A program made the translations under genes and the position numbers. From Bacillota bacterium (GTDB taxonomy: Bacteria > Bacillota > Limnochordia > Darwinibacteriales > DTU012), in contig DURM01000009.1 of assembly GCA_012837335.1 (NCBI GenBank), positions 1-64,000 on the forward strand: DNA of 64,000 nucleotides, read 5' to 3'. Position 1 is the stretch's first letter. Every line of letters starts with the position of its first letter. The notes beneath the pieces were generated by a model that saw nothing but the letters and a program-made list of their open reading frames with translations, did not search any database and had not been told where the DNA came from. Below are positions 34,026 to 46,341 of this stretch, one piece after another.

Positions 34026-34107
34026 AGGGGAGGGTGATATTTTACTTGGTATCAAAAAGCAGCCATTCTCTGCGAACCAACCATAAAAAGAAAGGTGGAG
34101 TGAAGTG

Positions 34108-35142
34108 ATGAACGCACTTAAAGGCAAGTTAAACTTCGGGTTGATAGCGGTTTTAATCGTTTCCTTTACTCTAGTTGGCTGTTTTGGACGAGTGGTTAAT
34201 GAAGCAAATATCATTTCTTTTGATTTGCTGGATGATGATGGAAATTCAGTTTTAGAGGGAGCAGCATTAATTGACACTAAAGGAAGAACCATTATTGGAA
34301 TGGTCGGTGATCTTAAAACAGTTGATATTACAAACTTGAAACCGCATATCGAAGTAACCGAAAGATACCAGGTATACTTCAGCGAAGAACTGCATGTTAA
34401 TGGTGAATCTGCTTATGACTTTTCTGGACCGGTTATCTTTACGGTGACCAAAGACAACGATCCTAAACTGACAAAAGAATGGACGGTTGTGATTAAAGAC
34501 CCCTACAGTCCGCTTGTAATGTGGAATTTTGCAGATGGTCTCCATAAAGAATTTACCATGCACAATGAAGTAGAATTCGTAGATGGGGTAAGAGATAAAG
34601 CACCCCACTTCAAGGGTTTTGGACCAAATGTATATTTGGTTGTGGATGAAGGATTTGTAGCTGAAAATCTGGTCTTTCCGGATAATACATTTACCCTCGA
34701 AACCTGGTTTTATCTGGACAGCACTTTGAAAACGGATGGCTGGAATGCAGCGTTTTCAACCGGTGGAGATGGTCCTGGCAATGTTAGATTGTTGGTTGGC
34801 GGCCATGCTGAAGGTTTGCTGCAGCAATTAATCTATATTTCTGTAGGCAACCACAAAGGGGAGCGGTCTGTTGATTGGCATCCCGATACATGGCACCACT
34901 TTGCCTATGTGTACGATGGTACCGACCTGTTGGTTTATCTTGATGGTGAGCTTGCATTGGTCGAAGAAAATCCTAATGTAGGAAATATTGATTTTACTGG
35001 CGGAGCTCCAGGATTTTACATCGGTGCTCAGCATCCAACCAGCAACAGACGTAATTTCGGCGGTATGATTGACGAAATGGTTATCTATGACTATGCGCGT
35101 TCCGCTGAACAGATTAAAGCGAGCTACGAAAGCAACAAATAA
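34108..35142 (+). CDS. LamG-domain lipoprotein 1
   Basis: 344 residues from the ATG at 34108 (AGGTGGAG seven bases upstream). The lipobox LVGC at about residues 22-25 marks a lipoprotein. Residues 35-135 form a small beta domain (FDLLDDDGNSVLEGAALIDT to LTKEWTVVIKDP). Residues 140-344 form a laminin-G/concanavalin-like domain: LETWFYLDSTLKTDGWNAAF, WHHFAYVYDGTDLLVYLDGE and FGGMIDEMVIYDYARSAEQI. It is paralogous to the next two genes and closest to the third (VAENLVFPDN versus VAENFVFPDN). Surface glycan capture for the importer is inference. Confidence 0.82.
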   Translation: MNALKGKLNFGLIAVLIVSFTLVGCFGRVVNEANIISFDLLDDDGNSVLEGAALIDTKGRTIIGMVGDLKTVDITNLKPHIEVTERYQVYFSEELHVNGESAYDFSGPVIFTVTKDNDPKLTKEWTVVIKDPYSPLVMWNFADGLHKEFTMHNEVEFVDGVRDKAPHFKGFGPNVYLVVDEGFVAENLVFPDNTFTLETWFYLDSTLKTDGWNAAFSTGGDGPGNVRLLVGGHAEGLLQQLIYISVGNHKGERSVDWHPDTWHHFAYVYDGTDLLVYLDGELALVEENPNVGNIDFTGGAPGFYIGAQHPTSNRRNFGGMIDEMVIYDYARSAEQIKASYESNK

Positions 35143-35150
35143 ATATGTTT

Positions 35151-35184
35151 CAAGTTGAAGCCAACTCAAAATGGCTTCAACTTG
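35151..35184 (+). other. intercistronic hairpin without U-tract
   Basis: CAAGTTGAAGCCA and TGGCTTCAACTTG form a 13-bp perfect stem with an 8-base loop, between lipoprotein genes 1 and 2. It probably stabilises or sets processing of the upstream mRNA. Confidence 0.65.
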
Positions 35185-35218
35185 GCAACTCCAAAATATT
35201 ATGCGGGGAGGAAAATAA

Positions 35219-36286
35219 GTGAACCGGAATGGAATGAAAGTTAATCTTGGATTGCTGATAATTTTGTCTATGTCACTAGTCTTGAGCGGTTGTCTTGGAT
35301 TTGGTTCAAATTTAGCAGATATTCTATCGTTTGATATCTTAGATGACGAGGGCAACAGCGTTTTGGAACAGGAAGTCGTGATTGATGTCAAAAACGGTGT
35401 TGTAACAGGTTCGGTAAAGGCTGAAAACTTAATTGACGCCATTTACGGCAAGCCTGTGATTACGGTAAACAAGGGCTACGATATTTACTATGATGGCGAA
35501 CCTCATGTTAATGGAGAATCGGTTTATGATTTCAGTGAGTCAGTCGAGTTTACTGTAACTAAGGACAGTAAAAAGTCTCAGACTAAAACATGGACTGTAA
35601 TTCTGGAGATCGTTTCCGACACCGATCCTGTAGAACCCGGTCCTGAACCTCTTGTACATTGGACCTTTGATGGAAAAACTCTGCCTTCAGAGTTGAGCCC
35701 GTCGGCAGAAGGAAAACTTGATTTCGTTCCCGGAGTATCAGGCGATGCGATGTTGTTTAAAGACAATGCATGCTTGGTTATTTCTGAAGAGTTTACAAAC
35801 GCGAGCCTCCAGTTCGAAGAAGCTATCTTTACAGTTGATTTATGGTTCAATGCTGACAGTGACTATTTTTATACAGGGAAATGGAATGGCTTGTTCTCCT
35901 CGGGAAGTCAACAAAGGAAAAACGTGCGCCTGCTTTTGGATGGACAGAATATCGGTAAAGCTCATATTCATGTCGACGGTATAAGCGAAGCTGCAGAGAT
36001 TAACTGGGAAACTGACAAATGGCACCATATCGCCCTGTTATATGATGGCAACTCCGTGTTAATGTATCTTGATGGGGAATTGGTTTACGAAAATGCAGAT
36101 GCTGATGTACAGGAAATCGATTTTACTAGTGTTGTTAAAGAGTCATTTATAGGTGCCCAGTATCCTGATGCCGGCCAGGAATCATCGAAACGGTTTTTTG
36201 GCGGTATGATTGATGAAGTCAGAATTTGGGATATTGCCTTAACCCATGAGCAGATCCTAGAAACTTTTAACACAGCTAAGCAGTAA
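35219..36286 (+). CDS. LamG-domain lipoprotein 2
   Basis: 355 residues from GTG at 35219, seven bases after GGGGAGG. Lipobox LSGC at about residues 22-25. The N-terminal beta domain (FDILDDEGNSVLEQEVVIDV, then GYDIYYDGEPHVNGESVYDF) is nearly superimposable on that of lipoprotein 1. A proline-rich linker (DTDPVEPGPEPLVHW) leads to the laminin-G-like domain with WHHIALLYDGNSVLMYLDGE and FGGMIDEVRIWDIALTHEQI. This copy has an insertion in the first LamG strands (EFTNASLQFEEAIF) and is the most divergent of the three. It binds rather than cuts, judging from the lack of catalytic residues. Confidence 0.82.
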   Translation: MNRNGMKVNLGLLIILSMSLVLSGCLGFGSNLADILSFDILDDEGNSVLEQEVVIDVKNGVVTGSVKAENLIDAIYGKPVITVNKGYDIYYDGEPHVNGESVYDFSESVEFTVTKDSKKSQTKTWTVILEIVSDTDPVEPGPEPLVHWTFDGKTLPSELSPSAEGKLDFVPGVSGDAMLFKDNACLVISEEFTNASLQFEEAIFTVDLWFNADSDYFYTGKWNGLFSSGSQQRKNVRLLLDGQNIGKAHIHVDGISEAAEINWETDKWHHIALLYDGNSVLMYLDGELVYENADADVQEIDFTSVVKESFIGAQYPDAGQESSKRFFGGMIDEVRIWDIALTHEQILETFNTAKQ

Positions 36287-36325
36287 AAAGTTCTAGTAAA
36301 GGAGAAAAAAGGAGGTAGTCTATCT

Positions 36326-37327
36326 ATGGCAGCGAGAAAAATTAAACGTATGACAGGTTTATTGCTTGTTGCAATAACAGCTTTATTTTTGGCTGCATGC
36401 GGAAATCCTTTAATGAACATGACATTTGAGCTTCTTGATACCAATGGCGAAAACGTAGTCTATGACTACGAACTCAATGCTGTCAATGGGACAATTACCG
36501 CATATGTCAGTGCCAATACACGTCTTGAAGGCAGAGAATACAATCCGATTTTCGGTACTCCCGAAGGATACGCTGTCTATTACAATGGCGAAGTTCATGA
36601 AAACTACGTTTCCTCCTATAACTTCGAGGAACCTTTGATTATCGAAATCCACGGTGAAGAAGGGGTTGAAACCTGGGAGATTCGCATCGAGCATTTCAGT
36701 TCTCCGATTGTCCACTGGACCTTCGATAAAGGTTTCCCCGAAGAGATCACTCCTTATAACAAAGCTTATCTTGTTTATGGATATGTCAATGATGGAGTTC
36801 AATTTGAAGGTTTTAGCGGCAAAGGTTATCTGGAAGTAGATGCTGGTTTTGTCGCAGAAAATTTTGTTTTCCCCGACAATATCTTTTCAATCGATTTATG
36901 GTTTATGGCTGATTCAGAATATCTAACCGATGGATGGAACGCTTTAATTTCAACAGGCGGAAATGCACCGGGTAATGTGAGGATTTTAATTGGTGGACAC
37001 GCAGAAGGCCTCGCGCAGCAATTAGCATACATCGCAGTGGATGGCAGTGCTGGCCCGGAATCAATCGGCTGGGAAGTAGATAAGTGGCATCACATTGCTT
37101 TGGTCTATGATGGCAGCGATGTTCTTGTCTACTTAGATGGCGATTTGGTTGTGCGCAGAGCAAATGCACCTGTTGATAATATCAATTTCCAAGCCAACTT
37201 CCCCCAGATTTATTTGGGCACTGAATCCCCGACGTTTAGATACTTCGGTGGTGTGTTAGATGAAGTTAGAATTTGGAACTATGCTCTGAGCGAAGCTCAA
37301 ATCAAAGAAGCTGCTAAGCTTCGTTAA
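36326..37327 (+). CDS. LamG-domain lipoprotein 3
   Basis: 333 residues. GGAGG lies ten bases before the ATG. Lipobox LAAC at about residues 22-25. The N-terminal domain (FELLDTNGENVVYDYELNAV, then YAVYYNGEVHENYVSSYNFE) and the LamG domain (DLWFMADSEYLTDGWNALIS, WHHIALVYDGSDVLVYLDGD, FGGVLDEVRIWNYALSEAQI) match those of the two preceding genes in order and spacing. A tandem duplication is evident. The strong hairpin after the stop separates it from the intracellular GH43 gene, so the lipoprotein triplet may form its own expression module. Confidence 0.82.
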   Translation: MAARKIKRMTGLLLVAITALFLAACGNPLMNMTFELLDTNGENVVYDYELNAVNGTITAYVSANTRLEGREYNPIFGTPEGYAVYYNGEVHENYVSSYNFEEPLIIEIHGEEGVETWEIRIEHFSSPIVHWTFDKGFPEEITPYNKAYLVYGYVNDGVQFEGFSGKGYLEVDAGFVAENFVFPDNIFSIDLWFMADSEYLTDGWNALISTGGNAPGNVRILIGGHAEGLAQQLAYIAVDGSAGPESIGWEVDKWHHIALVYDGSDVLVYLDGDLVVRRANAPVDNINFQANFPQIYLGTESPTFRYFGGVLDEVRIWNYALSEAQIKEAAKLR

Positions 37328-38526: not shown

Positions 38527-39813
38527 TTGAACATCATTTACATACACACTCATGATGTAGGGCGGTTTATAGAACCTTACGGACACAATGTCAGAACTCC
38601 AAATCTATTTAAGCTAGCTAAAGAAGGAACTCTTTTTCGCCAAGCTTTTTGTACCGCACCTACCTGTTCACCGAGCCGAGCGAGCATGTTAACGGGCGAA
38701 TATCCCCATTCTATCGGAATGCTGGGATTGACCCACAGAGGGTTTAAAATTAACGATCATTCTAAGCACTTGGCACATTATCTTAGAGCAAATGGAATAG
38801 AGACAGTACTGTGTGGTTTCCAGCATGAATCATCAGATTTAGATCAGCTGGGCTACAGCAGGTATCTGGGTAATGATTCCGATTTAAACAACGCCAAAAA
38901 GGTTGTCCAGTTTCTTGAGAACAGGGAGCCAAACAAGAGCTTCTTTTTATCCTTTGGCATGATGAGTGCTCATCGTCCCTTTCCCCAACTTGAAGAAGAT
39001 GATGTGAATCCCAATTATGTATGCCCGCCCTTCGGCATTCATGATAATCCGGAAACGCGAAAAGATATGGCAAGATTTATTAAGGGTGTGCATCGAGTAG
39101 ATGAATGCGTCGGAATGGTCATGGAGGCTGTAAAAAATTCCGGATTGGAAGAAAACACGTTGATCTTTTTCACCACAGACCACGGAATCGCCTTCCCGGG
39201 AATGAAATGCACTTTATATGATGTAGGCATCGGAGTTTCTTTAATCATAAAGTACCCCGCAAATCCGAGTAGGGGCGAAGTTGTCGATTCTTTAGTGTCT
39301 CATATCGATATTTATCCAACGGTTTGTGATTTTCTTGGTGTCGAAAAGCCACCTTGGGTAAAAGGTAATTCGCTACTTCCTTTAATGGAGAAAAAAGTCG
39401 AATCAGTGCAGGAAGAGATTTATGCAGAAATCAATTTTCATGCCGCCTATGAGCCAATGCGATGCATTAGAACTGAGAGATACAAGTATATCAAGTTTTT
39501 TGACGACCACAATGACATCGTTGCAGTTAATATAGACGATGGACTTACCAAGAATTTCTTAGTGGAAAATGGTTTGTTAGAGCACAAACGGGAATCTGAG
39601 TATCTCTTTGATTTATATTTAGATCCGTTAGAAAAAAGAAATTTGGTTAACCACAGCAGCTATCAAGATGTGTATCAAACGCTTGCGGTTAAGCTTCAGG
39701 TTTGGATGGAAAAAACAGATGATCCTCTGCTAGATGGAGCGATACCAAAGCCCAAAGGCACAAGAATCCACGACAGAACCTGCTTGAGCACAAGGGAGAA
39801 GAGGTTCCTGTGA
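38527..39813 (+). CDS. intracellular sulfatase (Cys-type, S1 family)
   Basis: 428 residues starting at TTG behind GGAGGTTT. The N-terminus ([25 protein letters not shown]) is like the heparan N-sulfatase-type branch of the S1 sulfatases. The active-site signature is [11 protein letters not shown] (Cys about residue 49); that Cys must be oxidised to formylglycine, in anaerobes by a radical SAM maturase. [12 protein letters not shown] supplies the metal-site Asp and His and a Lys follows at MKCTLYD. There is no signal peptide, so desulfation is cytoplasmic. A maturase homologue is four genes downstream but lacks key cysteines. Confidence 0.88.
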
Positions 39814-39944: not shown

Positions 39945-41096
39945 ATGATTAATGTAGCAATCATTGGGGTGGGTGCAATTGCTCCCACGCATATTGAAGC
40001 TTTTTTAGAATTTAAGGATCGGTGTAAAATTGTAGCCCTGTGCGATATTTACCCGGAAAAAGCAGAAGCAGCAGCCAAAAGGTACAATTTAGATGTAGAT
40101 ATTTATGATGATCACGAAAAAATGCTTGATAGAAAAGACATTGACTTAGTATCTGTTTGTACACCACCATATACACATGCAGAAATCTCAATTAATTTTC
40201 TGAATGCCGGAGTGCATGTGCTTTGCGAGAAACCGATGGCTTCCTCACTGGAAGAATGCGATGCCATGAATGAAGCGGCCGCTAAAAACGGCAAGATTTT
40301 GTCGATCATTTCCCAAAATCGTTTCGCAACTCCAATGATGAAGTTAAAGGATGTATTAGATTCCGGTTCGATGGGCCCGATCGTCCATGCGCAGGTAGAT
40401 TCTTTCTGGTGGAGAGGTTACAGTTACTATGACTTATGGTGGAGAGGCACCTGGGAAAAAGAAGGAGGAGGCCCGACTTTAAACCATGCTGTGCACCATA
40501 TTGATATCTTCCGCTGGATGAATGGAATGCCGCAAGAAGTTACAGCCGTTATGAGCAATGCAGCTCATGACAATGCTGAAGTTGAGGATATTTCAATTGC
40601 CATCTGCAAGTATGCCAGCGGAGCCCTGGCTCAAATAACCAGTTCCGTGATTCATCACGGAGAGGAGCAGCAGCTGATTTTCCAAGGTAAGGATGCTAGA
40701 GTTTCTGTACCCTGGAAAGTTGTAGCATCAAAGTCAAAAGGGAATGGATTTCCTGAGCCTAACCTGGAGCTGGAAGCCGAGATCCAAAAGGTTTTCGATC
40801 AACGCGAACCGCTTAAATACCAGTTCCACAAAGGTCAAATTGAGGATGTATTATCGGCGGTAGAGGGCAAACAGGATGTCCTGATTACAGGGGAAGATGG
40901 CAGACAAACGCTGGAATTAATCACAGCTATTTACCAGTCAGCAAGTTTAGGAGAGACTGTAAAACTACCTCTTGGCAAGGACAGTCCTTTCTATACCCAC
41001 GCAGGCATATTAAAACATGCTGTGAAATTTTATGAAAAGAAGGTAAGCGTTGAGAATTTCTCAGATAACGAAATTACAACCGGCGGTAATTATTAG
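39945..41096 (+). CDS. Gfo/Idh/MocA family oxidoreductase 1
   Basis: 383 residues. The Rossmann start VAIIGVGAIAPTHIEAF binds NAD(P), and VCTPPYTHAEISINFLNAGVHVLCEKPMA carries the EKP motif that defines the family. The C-terminal domain has WWRGTWEKEGGGPTLNHAVHHIDIFRWM with the His pair used in catalysis. Such enzymes oxidise or reduce sugars, inositols or sugar acids. Its position between sulfatase and maturase homologue suggests a step on the desulfated or uronate sugar, but the substrate cannot be read from sequence. AAGGAGTTGAGG precedes the ATG. Confidence 0.9.
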   Translation: MINVAIIGVGAIAPTHIEAFLEFKDRCKIVALCDIYPEKAEAAAKRYNLDVDIYDDHEKMLDRKDIDLVSVCTPPYTHAEISINFLNAGVHVLCEKPMASSLEECDAMNEAAAKNGKILSIISQNRFATPMMKLKDVLDSGSMGPIVHAQVDSFWWRGYSYYDLWWRGTWEKEGGGPTLNHAVHHIDIFRWMNGMPQEVTAVMSNAAHDNAEVEDISIAICKYASGALAQITSSVIHHGEEQQLIFQGKDARVSVPWKVVASKSKGNGFPEPNLELEAEIQKVFDQREPLKYQFHKGQIEDVLSAVEGKQDVLITGEDGRQTLELITAIYQSASLGETVKLPLGKDSPFYTHAGILKHAVKFYEKKVSVENFSDNEITTGGNY

Positions 41097-41127
41097 TCAA
41101 TGTAAAAATACATGGGGTGAAAATATT

Positions 41128-42213
41128 ATGAATAGACGAGACGGAATGAACTATGCTCCCAAGGGGAAACCAAACAAAGTTGTACAGGATGGAGAGTTTT
41201 TAATTGCAGCAATCGGCTTAGACCATGGGCACATCTACGGCATGTGCAATGGATTAATTGAAGCCGGTGCAAACTTGGTTGCGGTATATGACCCTGATCC
41301 AAAGAAAGTAGAAACCTTCTGCAGAAGATATCCCCAAGCCAAAGCTGCTGAAACAGCAGAAGAGATCTTGAGCGATGAGTCTATTAATCTCATTGCCTGT
41401 GCAAGTATACCGGTAGACAGGCACAAATGGGGTTTAAAGGCGTTGGACAGCGGTAAGCATTTCTTTGCTGACAAACCAGGCTTTACAACACTAGAGCAGG
41501 TAGAAGCTGCTGAGAAGAAAGTTCGGGAAACCGGATTAAAGTGGGGAATTTATTACAGCGAACGGATTCATAACGAAGGAGCTGTATTTGCGGGCCAGTT
41601 AGTTGAGGAAGGAGCTATTGGACGCGTCGTCCAGGTGATTGGTACCGGACCGCATCGAGCTAATGTTTCACAGAGACCGGATTGGTTTTTCGATCCTGAA
41701 TGTTATGGTGGAATTCTTTGCGATATAGGAAGTCATCAAATCGAGCAGTTTTTATACTACACCGGAGCCAAAGACGCAAAGGTTGTTCACAGCAAGGTTG
41801 CTAACTATAACTTCAAAGATTATCCTCAATTCCAAGATTTTGGCGATGCTACCTTAATCGCTGATAACGGTGCAACATTTTACTTTAGAGTCGATTGGTT
41901 TACTCCAGATGGACTGAGAACTTGGGGAGATGGCCGCGTTCTGATTTTAGGAACAGATGGTTATATTGAAGTTAGAAAATATATTGACATAGTTCGCGAT
42001 CAGGGCGGCGACCATGTATATCTGGTAAACCATGAAGGCGAAAAGCATTTTCATGTTTCCGGTCAAGTGGGCTTTCCGTTTTTTGGTCAGTTCATCCTGG
42101 ATTGTTTAAACGGAACAGAAAATGCTATGACTCAGGAACATACATTTAAAGCAGCCAGTCTTTGCATCGTAGCTCAAACTCAAGCAGTAGTTGTTGAATC
42201 AGCAGACAAGTAA
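41128..42213 (+). CDS. Gfo/Idh/MocA family oxidoreductase 2
   Basis: 361 residues from the ATG at 41128, seven bases after GGGGTGA; an earlier in-frame start would overlap the preceding gene. It is related to but distinct from its neighbour. The N-terminal half has AAIGLDHGHIYGMCNGLIEAGANLVAVYD, and SGKHFFADKPGFTT replaces the usual EKP with DKP. YGGILCDIGSHQIEQFLYYTG holds the catalytic-region His. Two such genes in a row often act on successive or epimeric sugars. It is followed by an inverted repeat. Confidence 0.87.
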   Translation: MNRRDGMNYAPKGKPNKVVQDGEFLIAAIGLDHGHIYGMCNGLIEAGANLVAVYDPDPKKVETFCRRYPQAKAAETAEEILSDESINLIACASIPVDRHKWGLKALDSGKHFFADKPGFTTLEQVEAAEKKVRETGLKWGIYYSERIHNEGAVFAGQLVEEGAIGRVVQVIGTGPHRANVSQRPDWFFDPECYGGILCDIGSHQIEQFLYYTGAKDAKVVHSKVANYNFKDYPQFQDFGDATLIADNGATFYFRVDWFTPDGLRTWGDGRVLILGTDGYIEVRKYIDIVRDQGGDHVYLVNHEGEKHFHVSGQVGFPFFGQFILDCLNGTENAMTQEHTFKAASLCIVAQTQAVVVESADK

Positions 42214-42263: not shown

Positions 42264-42300
42264 ACAATCTGTAAGTCCTCGACCGCAAAGGAGTTTGGAA

Positions 42301-43566
42301 ATGAGTCAAACATCCAGAAGAACAGCCGATGCATATCATCTTAATCATTCAATCATGGTCTTTCCCAATGTCCCGCGCTGTAAGGTTAAGAATTATCCTG
42401 AAGAAAAATCCTTTCAGATGGACTGCGAGCTGCTTGAGGAATACATAAAACAGTATATTGAGATCCAGTCCGGACCTATAATAAATTTTGGCTGGCAGGG
42501 CGGAGAGCCGACAATTCGGGGGCTTGAATTTTTTCAGAAAGCGGTTGAATTGCAAAAGAAATATTTACCTTCGGGTTGGCACATTCAAAACAGCTTCCAG
42601 ACAAATGGGATTTTTTTAGATGATAATTGGTGCAGTTTTTTCAAGAAAAATAATTTTTTAGTCGGTATCAGTTTGGACGGCACAAAGGAACTGCATGATT
42701 TGTGTCGCAAAGATAAGCACAACCGCCCTACATATGACAAGGTCGTGAGTGGAATTCGGCTTCTACAAAAGCACAAAGTTGAGTATAATGTTCTCTGCAC
42801 TGTCAACAATTTGAATTCTAGGTTTCCTTTGGACGTGTATATTTCCATAAAAGAATTAGGTGGCGACTTTATTCAGTTTATTCCCATCGTAAATTATGAC
42901 AATCTGGGGAATACTGACGAGCTCTCTGTGAATCCCGCAGATTATGGTAATTTTCTGGTTGCCATTTTTGATGAATGGATTAATAAAGATTACGGTCAAG
43001 TATTTGTGCAGATTTTTGAGGATGCAGTAAGGGCCTGGGCCGGATTTCCACCGGCCTTGTGCACTTTTTCGAAAACCTGTGGAAATGCTGAAGTGGTGGA
43101 GTTCAATGGAGACGTTTATTCCTGCGACCACTTTGTTTTTCCAGAATATAAATTAGGCAATATAAAAGAAAAATCTCTTGTTGAAATGGCCAATTCGAAC
43201 CAGCAAATTCAATTTGGACTAAATAAATTCGAAACTCTCCCGCGGAAATGTCTAGAGTGCGCGGTTAGATTTATCTGTAACGGCGGCTGTCCTAAGAATA
43301 GGACTATCCGAACTAGCGACGGCGAAAAGGGTTTAAATTACTTGTGCGGTGCCTATCAGCAGTTTTTTAATTATATTGCTCCTTACATGAACACAATAGT
43401 GTTTGGATTAAAGCGGCGAATGACACCTTCACATATTAAAGAAAGATTGGTATGGGTGCAGCGTGAAATCTGGGATGTTGGCAGAAACGATCCCTGTCCT
43501 TGCGGTAGCGGTAAAAAGTATAAAAAATGCTGCATTGATCGGATAGAAAGCACCATATCACTGTAA
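42301..43566 (+). CDS. anaerobic sulfatase-maturase homologue lacking the full radical SAM cysteine motif
   Basis: 421 residues from the ATG at 42301, seven bases after AAAGGAG. Most of the anSME pattern is present: [53 protein letters not shown]. The SPASM cysteines are kept ([51 protein letters not shown]), as is a C-terminal SEC-C motif [16 protein letters not shown]. At the place of CX3CX2C the protein reads [13 protein letters not shown]: only the first Cys (about residue 27, codon at 42379) remains and the segment is a few residues short. Neither other frame restores it. It is therefore either inactive, non-canonical, or damaged. The sulfatase at 38.5 kb would be its client. Confidence 0.85.
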
Positions 43567-43589: not shown

Positions 43590-44660
43590 ATGAAAATGAT
43601 TTTGCGCTGGTTCGGCCGAGATGACGACCATGTTAGTTTGGAATATATCGTCCAAATCCCTGGGGTAAGTGGTATAGCTGGAGCCCTTTTTGATGTGCCA
43701 GTTGGAGAAGAGTGGCCGCTGGATAAAATTCGCGCTTTAGCTGATGATGTCAAAAAGAGCGGGCTTAAGTTTGAAGTCGTGGAAAGCGTAAATGTTCACG
43801 AAGATATTAAGCTGGGACTGCCCACCAGGGATCAATATATCGACAATTACATCCAGACCATTAGAAATCTCGCCAGTGTAGGTGTAAAGGTGATCTGCTA
43901 TAATTTTATGCCTGTCTTTGATTGGCTCCGCTCTGATTTGGCCATGCAGCTTGAGGATGGCTCCTATGCTATGGCATATCATGAGGATAAGATTATAGAT
44001 ACCAATCCGGTGGAAATTATTGAACGGTTCAGAGAAGGCTCGCAGGGATTTTCTCTGCCGGGATGGGAACCGGAAAGACTGGCGGAATTGAAGCAGGTGT
44101 TGAGCCAGTATGCAGCAGTGGACGAGGACAAGCTGTTTGATAACCTCAAATACTTTTTGGAAAGGCTGAAGCCTGTCTGTGATGAAACCGGTGTAAAGAT
44201 GGCAATTCATCCGGATGATCCGCCGTGGTCTGTATTTGGTCTGCCTCGGATTATTACTAACAGAGACAATTTAGCCAGGGTGCTCAGCCTAGTGGATTCT
44301 CCCCACAACGGACTGACATTATGCACAGGTTCCTTGGGAGCTAATTTGGATAACGACCTTCCGGCAATGATTAGGGAATTTGGTAAAAGAGGTAGGATTC
44401 ATTTTGTTCATGTGCGGAATCTAAAGATCTACGCTCCGGGTGATTTCCACGAGACATCACATTTATCCAGCGATGGTTCTTTGGATATGTTTGAAGTTAT
44501 GAAAGCCCTGTATGAAATAGGTTTTGATGGCTATCTCAGACCAGATCACGGTAGAATGATTTGGGGCGAAAAGGGCAGGCCTGGATATGGTTTATACGAT
44601 CGAGCGCTTGGAGCAATGTACTTAACCGGAATCTGGGAAGCGCTGAGCAAAATGGTGTAG
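43590..44660 (+). CDS. uxuA: mannonate dehydratase
   Basis: 356 residues from the ATG at 43590 behind GAGGTGAT. It converts D-mannonate to 2-keto-3-deoxygluconate in hexuronate breakdown, in the cytoplasm with Mn2+ or Fe2+. Family landmarks are [23 protein letters not shown] at the start, [16 protein letters not shown]-like [20 protein letters not shown], the metal ligands in [10 protein letters not shown] and [23 protein letters not shown] and HFVHVRN. Length matches the family. It is the last gene of the long operon and makes a strong case that uronate (for example glucuronate freed by the GH115 enzyme) is the end product. Confidence 0.94.
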
Positions 44661-45093: not shown

Positions 45094-46341
45094 ATGCTGA
45101 CCTCGCTGATCCGAATGTATCTTACCCGCAGCTTTGAACCTTTCCGATTTCAGAGCGAATACAGCAATCACCTTGATTACCATTGTTTGGACAATCTGGG
45201 TTTGTATGTGCACATCCCGTTCTGCCGCTCACTGTGCAGCTTCTGTCCTTACTGCCGAGTCAAGTATCAATCAGAGCTTGTGGAATTATATCTCAAGGCG
45301 CTGCTCCAAGAAATAGAGCTTGTGGGTAAAGCTTCAGCAGGGAAAAAGCAGGTGACCAGCCTCTACTTCGGTGGAGGCACACCTGCCCTGCTGATTGATG
45401 ATCTGGAACGGATCATTAATGCCATCCAGCGGTATTTTGTTATAACTGAAGGCATCGGCATCGAACTCCATCCGGAAGATCTGACCCCATCCAATCTTTC
45501 TAAGCTCAAAGATGCAGGTGTGAATATGGTATGTTTGGGTGTGCAGTCTTTTGATAAACAGTGTTTAGCCAATCTAGGGCGGATGGGAAAGAGTGCAGAG
45601 GCGGAACTGGAATTAGCAGGTAATGCCGGTTTTGCAGCAGTCGATGTAGATTTGATTTTTGCCATTCCTGGACAAACAACAGCATCCCTGCTGCAGGATG
45701 TGGATACTGCATTTAAGTATGGGGCTACCCAAGTTTCAACCTATCCTTTCATCGATTTTACCTTTGCGGATAACAAATATAAGCCGCTCTCAAAGCGGAG
45801 TAAAAAACAAATGCTCCAGGCACTGGTAGAGCACTGCAGAGCTGCAGGCAGAGAGCGAACTTCGGTGTGGACTTTTGCCGCACCGGGAACTCCGAAGTAT
45901 TCTTCGATTACACGAGACTTCTTCTTGGGCTTCGGGGTGTCTGCTGCTTCACTGCTTCGGGATCAGTTTAAAATTAACACCTTCTCAATTCCCGCGTATA
46001 TAGAGAGAGTCAGATCCGGGCAGCTGCCCACAATGCTCACCCTTGAGTTTACTCGGTACCAGCGGGCGGCCTATTATTTGTTCTGGAGTGCTTATTCTAT
46101 GAGCCTGTCACCGGAGCAGTTCCACTCGGTTGTTGGTGAGCCCCTGGAGAAGATATACGGGTTTGAGTTTTGGCTGTTGGAAAAACTCGGGCTGATTTAC
46201 AAACACGAAGATTTCTATAAACTAACAGATCAAGCTGCATATTATTATCATAATCTTGAGCAGATTTACACAACCGCTTACATCGATAAAATGTGGCATA
46301 TCGCTCGCTGTGAAGCATTTCCCCAGGAAATAATACTTTAG
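45094..46341 (+). CDS. HemW/HemN-like radical SAM protein
   Basis: 415 residues. LGLYVHIPFCRSLCSFCPYC holds the CX3CX2C cluster ligands with the extra Cys typical of the coproporphyrinogen oxidase-like group. TSLYFGGGTPALL, GIGIELHPEDLT, VCLGVQSFDKQCLANLGR and VDLIFAIPGQT follow in family order. The C-terminal HemN domain is recognisable but divergent, so it is more likely a HemW-like haem chaperone or a relative acting on another substrate than a true HemN. It directly follows the small GNAT gene with almost no gap and no clear ribosome binding site, which suggests coupling. Confidence 0.85.
   Translation: MLTSLIRMYLTRSFEPFRFQSEYSNHLDYHCLDNLGLYVHIPFCRSLCSFCPYCRVKYQSELVELYLKALLQEIELVGKASAGKKQVTSLYFGGGTPALLIDDLERIINAIQRYFVITEGIGIELHPEDLTPSNLSKLKDAGVNMVCLGVQSFDKQCLANLGRMGKSAEAELELAGNAGFAAVDVDLIFAIPGQTTASLLQDVDTAFKYGATQVSTYPFIDFTFADNKYKPLSKRSKKQMLQALVEHCRAAGRERTSVWTFAAPGTPKYSSITRDFFLGFGVSAASLLRDQFKINTFSIPAYIERVRSGQLPTMLTLEFTRYQRAAYYLFWSAYSMSLSPEQFHSVVGEPLEKIYGFEFWLLEKLGLIYKHEDFYKLTDQAAYYYHNLEQIYTTAYIDKMWHIARCEAFPQEIIL

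Follow-up and report, generated by a model that had tools for sequence, protein, structure and literature searches.

The catalytic chemistry of anaerobic sulfatase maturases (anSMEs) and of their SPASM relatives is tied to a short cysteine motif, CX3CX2C, which binds the SAM-cleaving cluster; in PqqE, a single Cys-to-Ser change abolished SAM cleavage, as related in the available part of PMC5715301. The accessible portion of PMC5491770 describes a SPASM enzyme in which all three cluster Cys were replaced by Ala and which could be purified and gave no product, and it treats eight further Cys as ligands of two auxiliary [4Fe-4S] clusters. B. thetaiotaomicron without its anSME loses growth on sulfated glycans, one anSME being needed for sulfatase function (PMC12928629, in its available part). 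In the open-licence PMC literature, we found no paper on an anSME lacking the radical-SAM motif. Here, we describe such a protein, encoded in what we call the window, the whole 64,000-nucleotide stretch of DNA that was analyzed, and we set it beside its relatives, its neighbors and a second protein with a similar loss.

An anSME homolog without its cluster loop

The reading frame begins at a TTG (42295-43566, + strand), six bases ahead of the ATG that gives 421 codons (Table 1) and that is preceded by an AAAGGAG-like ribosome site. In an NCBIfam profile search, the product reaches 444.8 bits against the TIGR03942 equivalog 'anaerobic sulfatase maturase' (cut-off 349.45), and PF04055 is matched at 42.2 bits (cut-off 29.5), with the match beginning only at profile position 21. 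Alignments show 11 residues (33 nt, in frame) to be absent after Cys1 of CX3CX2C, which is followed at once by a conserved Lys placed 11 residues later in relatives. Cys2 and Cys3 are gone together with 9 further residues, neighboring conserved aromatic residues are removed by the same gap, and Cys1 is the sole survivor of the triad. Few parts of the family are as strongly conserved as the deleted stretch, whose Asn, Cys, Tyr and Cys are each present in 162-165 of 166 aligned rows. Neither of the other two forward frames holds the CX3CX2C loop over 42291-42470. The first-pass annotation had proposed an anSME homolog with one triad Cys left, a few residues missing at that site and no rescue by other frames; each of these points stands, the few residues now being 11. 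An F in the window's 'MVFP', considered as decay of a 'KP' before the loop, is also found in the intact L009, L060, L061, L063 and L073 and is thus a clade trait.

Table 1. Coordinates of the gene, its motifs and its neighbors in the window
Feature	Position	Strand	Remarks
Cys-type (CSPSR) sulfatase, SGSH-like	38527..39813	+	PF00884 127.2 bits, PF16347; ORF open, ordinary
Gfo/Idh/MocA-type oxidoreductase between sulfatase and maturase	39945..41096	+	NCBIfam matches below cut-offs
Second Gfo/Idh/MocA-type oxidoreductase	41122..42213	+	Pfam
anSME homolog without radical-SAM cysteine loop	42301..43566	+	421 aa; TIGR03942, Pfam Radical_SAM/SPASM/SEC-C
Gap site of 33-nt in-frame loss	42379..42384	+	Cys1 (TGT, codon 27) abuts Lys codon 28; alignments, DNA
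GGEP motif codons, kept (G67-P70)	42499..42510	+	sequence
SPASM region, eight auxiliary-cluster Cys all kept	43060..43347	+	166-row alignment
SEC-C motif	43483..43533	+	PF02810, 41.1 bits, residues 395-411
Mannonate dehydratase (UxuA), directly downstream of maturase	43590..44660	+	NF003027 491.3 bits, PF03786 540.3 bits

Outside the gap, the anSME frame is retained, as had been claimed from the outset: GGEP and the SEC-C motif are joined by QTNG (Q100-G103), SLDG (S124-G127) and Asp276 after the third auxiliary Cys, and all 8 auxiliary-cluster columns keep their Cys (254, 260, 275, 317, 320, 326, 330 and 349; matched to anSMEcpe numbering through the available parts of PMC5491770 and PMC5715301). 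At strict columns (at least 95% conserved in the 166 rows; 42 columns, with the gaps of both loop-less proteins left out), the protein departs at none. At looser columns (90% in 33 relatives), 8 of 97 are changed, the highest count of 34 rows, the next being 7, and this may reflect a slight relaxation. Relative-rate comparisons with L060 gave p <0.05 for 2 of 8 outgroups, the window protein being the faster in both, and those with L009 and with L073 gave none of 7 each at that level. In a tree built before L060 was known, the protein is sister to L009 (95/92), with an end branch of 1.18, the second longest of 30.

A structural model predicted from 13 aligned rows, all whole ORFs, has a mean pLDDT of 80.8 and a pTM of 0.80, with residues 1-36 below pLDDT 50; an earlier model, for which six of the seven related rows began after the motif, reached pLDDT 59.3. 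The top Foldseek match of the model is anSMEcpe (E 5.0e-30), and superposition on 4k38 gives Z 38.2 and an rmsd of 2.5 over 351 residues (34% identity, residues 14 to 371), in keeping with a partial TIM barrel plus SPASM domain, residues 1-36 again being of low confidence. The deletion thus removes the cluster loop and would, to judge by the prediction, spare the body.

The triad among relatives

In the 166-row alignment, the Cys2 and Cys3 columns hold Cys in 164 rows, the exceptions being the window protein and L080, a proportion that makes the gap in the window more than chance. This census leaves out 18 of 184 rows: 12 as short or frame-broken (L030, L034, L086, L087, L088, L090, L100, L183, L191, L192, L193 and L198), four in which the motif is not covered (L041, L074, L104 and L148), one of another family (L031) and one duplicate (L121); it also omits at least three further matches, two in G883 and one in G612. 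Other internal gaps of at least 5 core columns number two, of 5 residues each (L081 and L082).

The closest relatives, L060 (62%) and L073 (58%), both of genome G401, and L007 (57%), have intact motifs (CNLNCDYC, CNLKCEYC and CNLDCEYC, respectively), and every relative at 57-62% that covers the motif has the triad. So do 69 of the 74 loci of one set (a count that includes L090, with a stop before GGEP), the remainder being L080 and the non-covering L034, L041, L074 and L104; 106 of the 109 loci in the phylum to which a Kiritimatiellae genome belongs, the rest being one contig-end cut and two frame-broken genes; and all 10 phage and plasmid records examined. The triad in relatives had been named beforehand as the result that would argue for simple local damage, and local damage is what the comparison indicates, with L080 as the only exception. 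L074 (G401, 57%), considered as a second loop-less case, begins at residue 73 and sits at a contig end (142,025), and it was rejected.

At 1e-60, none of the four same-genus genomes has a match; within the order, 9 of 36 do, the window's own included. Matches occur in 22 of 72 genomes in the class, 18 of 398 in a sample of the phylum, 12 of 59 in the class of G401 and 7 of 82 in the class of G222, each species being represented by a single genome in these collections.

Broken maturase genes are no rarity elsewhere: among 191 matching loci, five have stops in the body (L086, L090, L100, L192 and L198). L192 and L198 (G621 and G588) lack an intact triad and were not counted as loop-less, these being frame-broken genes with stops elsewhere; in both, a small lesion at Cys3 of the motif shifts the frame. 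At L076:11386-12715 (G401:C16), a CSPSR sulfatase by the intact anSME L073 is split into two ORFs, and sulfatase genes, too, can therefore break in such clusters.

A second loop-less protein

A scan of viral contigs brought up L080:1983-3146 on IMGVR_UViG_3300008262_000188, an anSME homolog that is 48-50% identical to the window protein and scores 470.5 bits against TIGR03942. Its N-terminus, FHVMAKPIGPLCNIGEKMFP, keeps Cys1 and lacks 9 residues, Cys2 and Cys3 among them, at the same place as the gap in the window. The frame is open for 387 codons, the auxiliary Cys are kept, and a sulfatase (PF00884, 167.3 bits; CAPAR) is convergent to the gene, which is preceded by genes for a nucleotidyltransferase and a dTDP-sugar epimerase. 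Some neighbors on the 69-kb contig belong by their matches to phage RNA ligase, endolysin and ATP-dependent protease families; the L080 protein has no further match within this record, which is possibly a fragment. The nearest relatives of L080, in G835 (64%) and G567 (58%), have the triad, and the two losses therefore appear separate. Of the 356 positions that a random 9-residue gap could take in the 364-column core, 12 would affect Cys2 or Cys3, a figure chosen post hoc. A degenerate DNA pattern over the window junction found no match in the viral contigs scanned.

The gene cluster and the second maturase

The Cys-type sulfatase, first described as four genes before the maturase, in fact lies three upstream, with two Gfo/Idh-type oxidoreductases between. 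The cluster also includes a GH43-like protein and other sugar genes in addition to the mannonate dehydratase. Elsewhere, comparable arrangements come with intact enzymes: G314 has an intact anSME from the window's clade directly after a sulfatase that is a 46.5% relative of the one in the window, and G006 has an intact anSME directly after a 62% relative of the second oxidoreductase. These gene pairs make it most likely that the window gene descends from a working maturase for its cluster's sulfatase. The second oxidoreductase has no clear GxGxxG near its start (AIGLDHGHIYGMCNG), its 62% relative in G006 notwithstanding. Also in this cluster, translations of the region at 34105-37327 show a 1336-aa protein followed by a tandem set of three putative lipoproteins (333-355 aa), LamG-like and related to one another. 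A HemN/HemW-like radical-SAM protein, below the cut-offs of the listed NCBIfam equivalogs, is encoded at 45094-46341 with an intact CX3CX2C (CRSLCSFC).

The genome also encodes an intact anSME (G000:C69:5589-6809, motif CNLKCEYC), which bears out the suggestion that a second, complete maturase be sought there. It lies directly after a CVPSR sulfatase, scores 478.3 bits against TIGR03942 and is 47-50% identical to the window protein. Three sulfatases of the genome exceed the Pfam cut-off, all of them Cys-type. True FGEs have a catalytic Cys pair; this pair is seen in none of the three FGE-domain (PF03781) proteins of the genome, which led us to reject a true FGE as its maturase and leaves the C69 anSME as the only evident one.

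Discussion

We consider it probable that the window gene encodes what used to be an anaerobic sulfatase maturase, at one time paired with the Cys-type sulfatase nearby, and that a single 33-nt in-frame deletion took away its radical-SAM catalysis. Deletion of the loop would eliminate the catalytic [4Fe-4S] cluster and with it reductive SAM cleavage, and a protein missing these ligands would make no formylglycine; it would probably still fold, perhaps with both auxiliary clusters in place. The intact C69 anSME could convert the Cys of the window sulfatase to formylglycine in trans, so that the loss would be tolerated; the sulfatase would either depend on the C69 enzyme for its maturation or stay unmatured. 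Given this spare copy, losing the window copy is cheap. The near-perfect upkeep at all other strict sites implies either a recent loss or a protein that continues to be useful. We favor (i) a recent loss, which we regard as probable and in which the gene would be a maturase just beginning to decay, not an enzyme with new chemistry, over (ii) a kept use, which we regard as unlikely. Of the three options in the first-pass annotation, a short deletion with a maturase elsewhere fits best, given the triad in relatives, the clean 33-nt gap and the C69 anSME. A non-catalytic helper, which has on its side the conservation of the remaining protein and the like loss in L080, is possible but less likely, and altered cluster binding finds little support. 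Two observations weigh against decay. There is little of it outside the gap, where none of the 42 strict columns is changed, the ribosome site is good and the frame stays open over all 421 codons, and with an old loss this would point to a function that has been maintained; and a like, apparently independent, loss in L080 exceeds what random damage readily gives.

These two observations bring up the possible, though unlikely, alternative that the protein is a cluster-less pseudoenzyme, which has shed its radical chemistry and is kept for binding the sulfatase or its CxPSR segment or for holding the auxiliary clusters; it might then serve as chaperone or timing device, or regulate the maturation that the intact paralog carries out. 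In favor of this reading, all but the loop is kept and the model fits anSMEcpe, and L080, which lost residues at the same spot and keeps its auxiliary Cys, its open frame and an adjoining sulfatase, would be a separate instance. Yet there are just two cases in 166 rows, the one in the window having been known beforehand; neither gap is common to any relative, no conserved gene pair points to a new partner, and within its own clade the window protein shows a mild excess of changes at looser columns, the highest of 34 rows. It would be a doubtful step further to see loop-less anSMEs as recurrent natural pseudoenzymes, in which selection, in separate lineages (one bacterial, one a phage-like contig), drops the cluster loop and keeps a sulfatase-binding body with two auxiliary clusters as a non-catalytic sulfatase partner, annotated all the while as a working maturase.

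Quite improbable, to our minds, is a strain variant or an assembly fault, in which the gene would be whole in the species at large and this contig would show a minority allele or a spurious gap. The genome is indeed a draft of 91 contigs, and the comparison covers one genome per species, but the gap preserves the frame exactly and is inside single-read distance, another radical-SAM gene of the window (45094-46341) retains its motif, and a multi-strain collapse would break the frame more often. That Cys27 holds the catalytic cluster in another way, with Cys42 and Cys135, which are new in the window protein and found at those columns in none of 33 relatives, is scarcely credible, because the spacing of the three is unlike CX3CX2C, the conserved loop aromatics are also gone, and the geometry is not readable in residues 1-36 of the model, where pLDDT is <50.

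Both loop-less proteins easily pass TIGR03942, so automatic annotation will credit such genomes with a maturase that, from everything known about this family, would be incapable of the chemistry. Were the pseudoenzyme reading correct, these proteins would offer a natural system for the role of the SPASM body and the auxiliary clusters without the radical cluster.

Comparison with known systems

The window protein is closest to the anSMEs themselves (TIGR03942; anSMEcpe, PDB 4k36-4k39), with which it shares the profile score, the whole-length model fold, GGEP, the eight auxiliary Cys, the Asp and the SPASM domain, as well as a SEC-C tail, present in many relatives, and a Cys-type sulfatase close to the gene; it differs in lacking Cys2 and Cys3 of CX3CX2C and 9 more residues. 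L080 resembles it in the lost loop, the kept Cys1, a passing TIGR03942 score and a sulfatase nearby, but lost 9 rather than 11 residues, belongs to another lineage, comes from a virus-collection contig and has no SEC-C tail in its 387 residues. PsgB (TIGR04419), a HemN-related non-iron pseudo-SAM protein, would be, by its family name only, a radical-SAM fold without an iron cluster; it is of the HemN subfamily, however, and its weak match (23.9 bits) is to the neighbor at 45094-46341, not to the window maturase. The laboratory mutant A3 of KW_cyclase, as far as the available part of PMC5491770 describes it, is likewise a SPASM radical-SAM protein that lacks the three cluster Cys and can still be purified, but it carries point mutations in another SPASM enzyme, whereas in the window protein the loop was deleted in nature.
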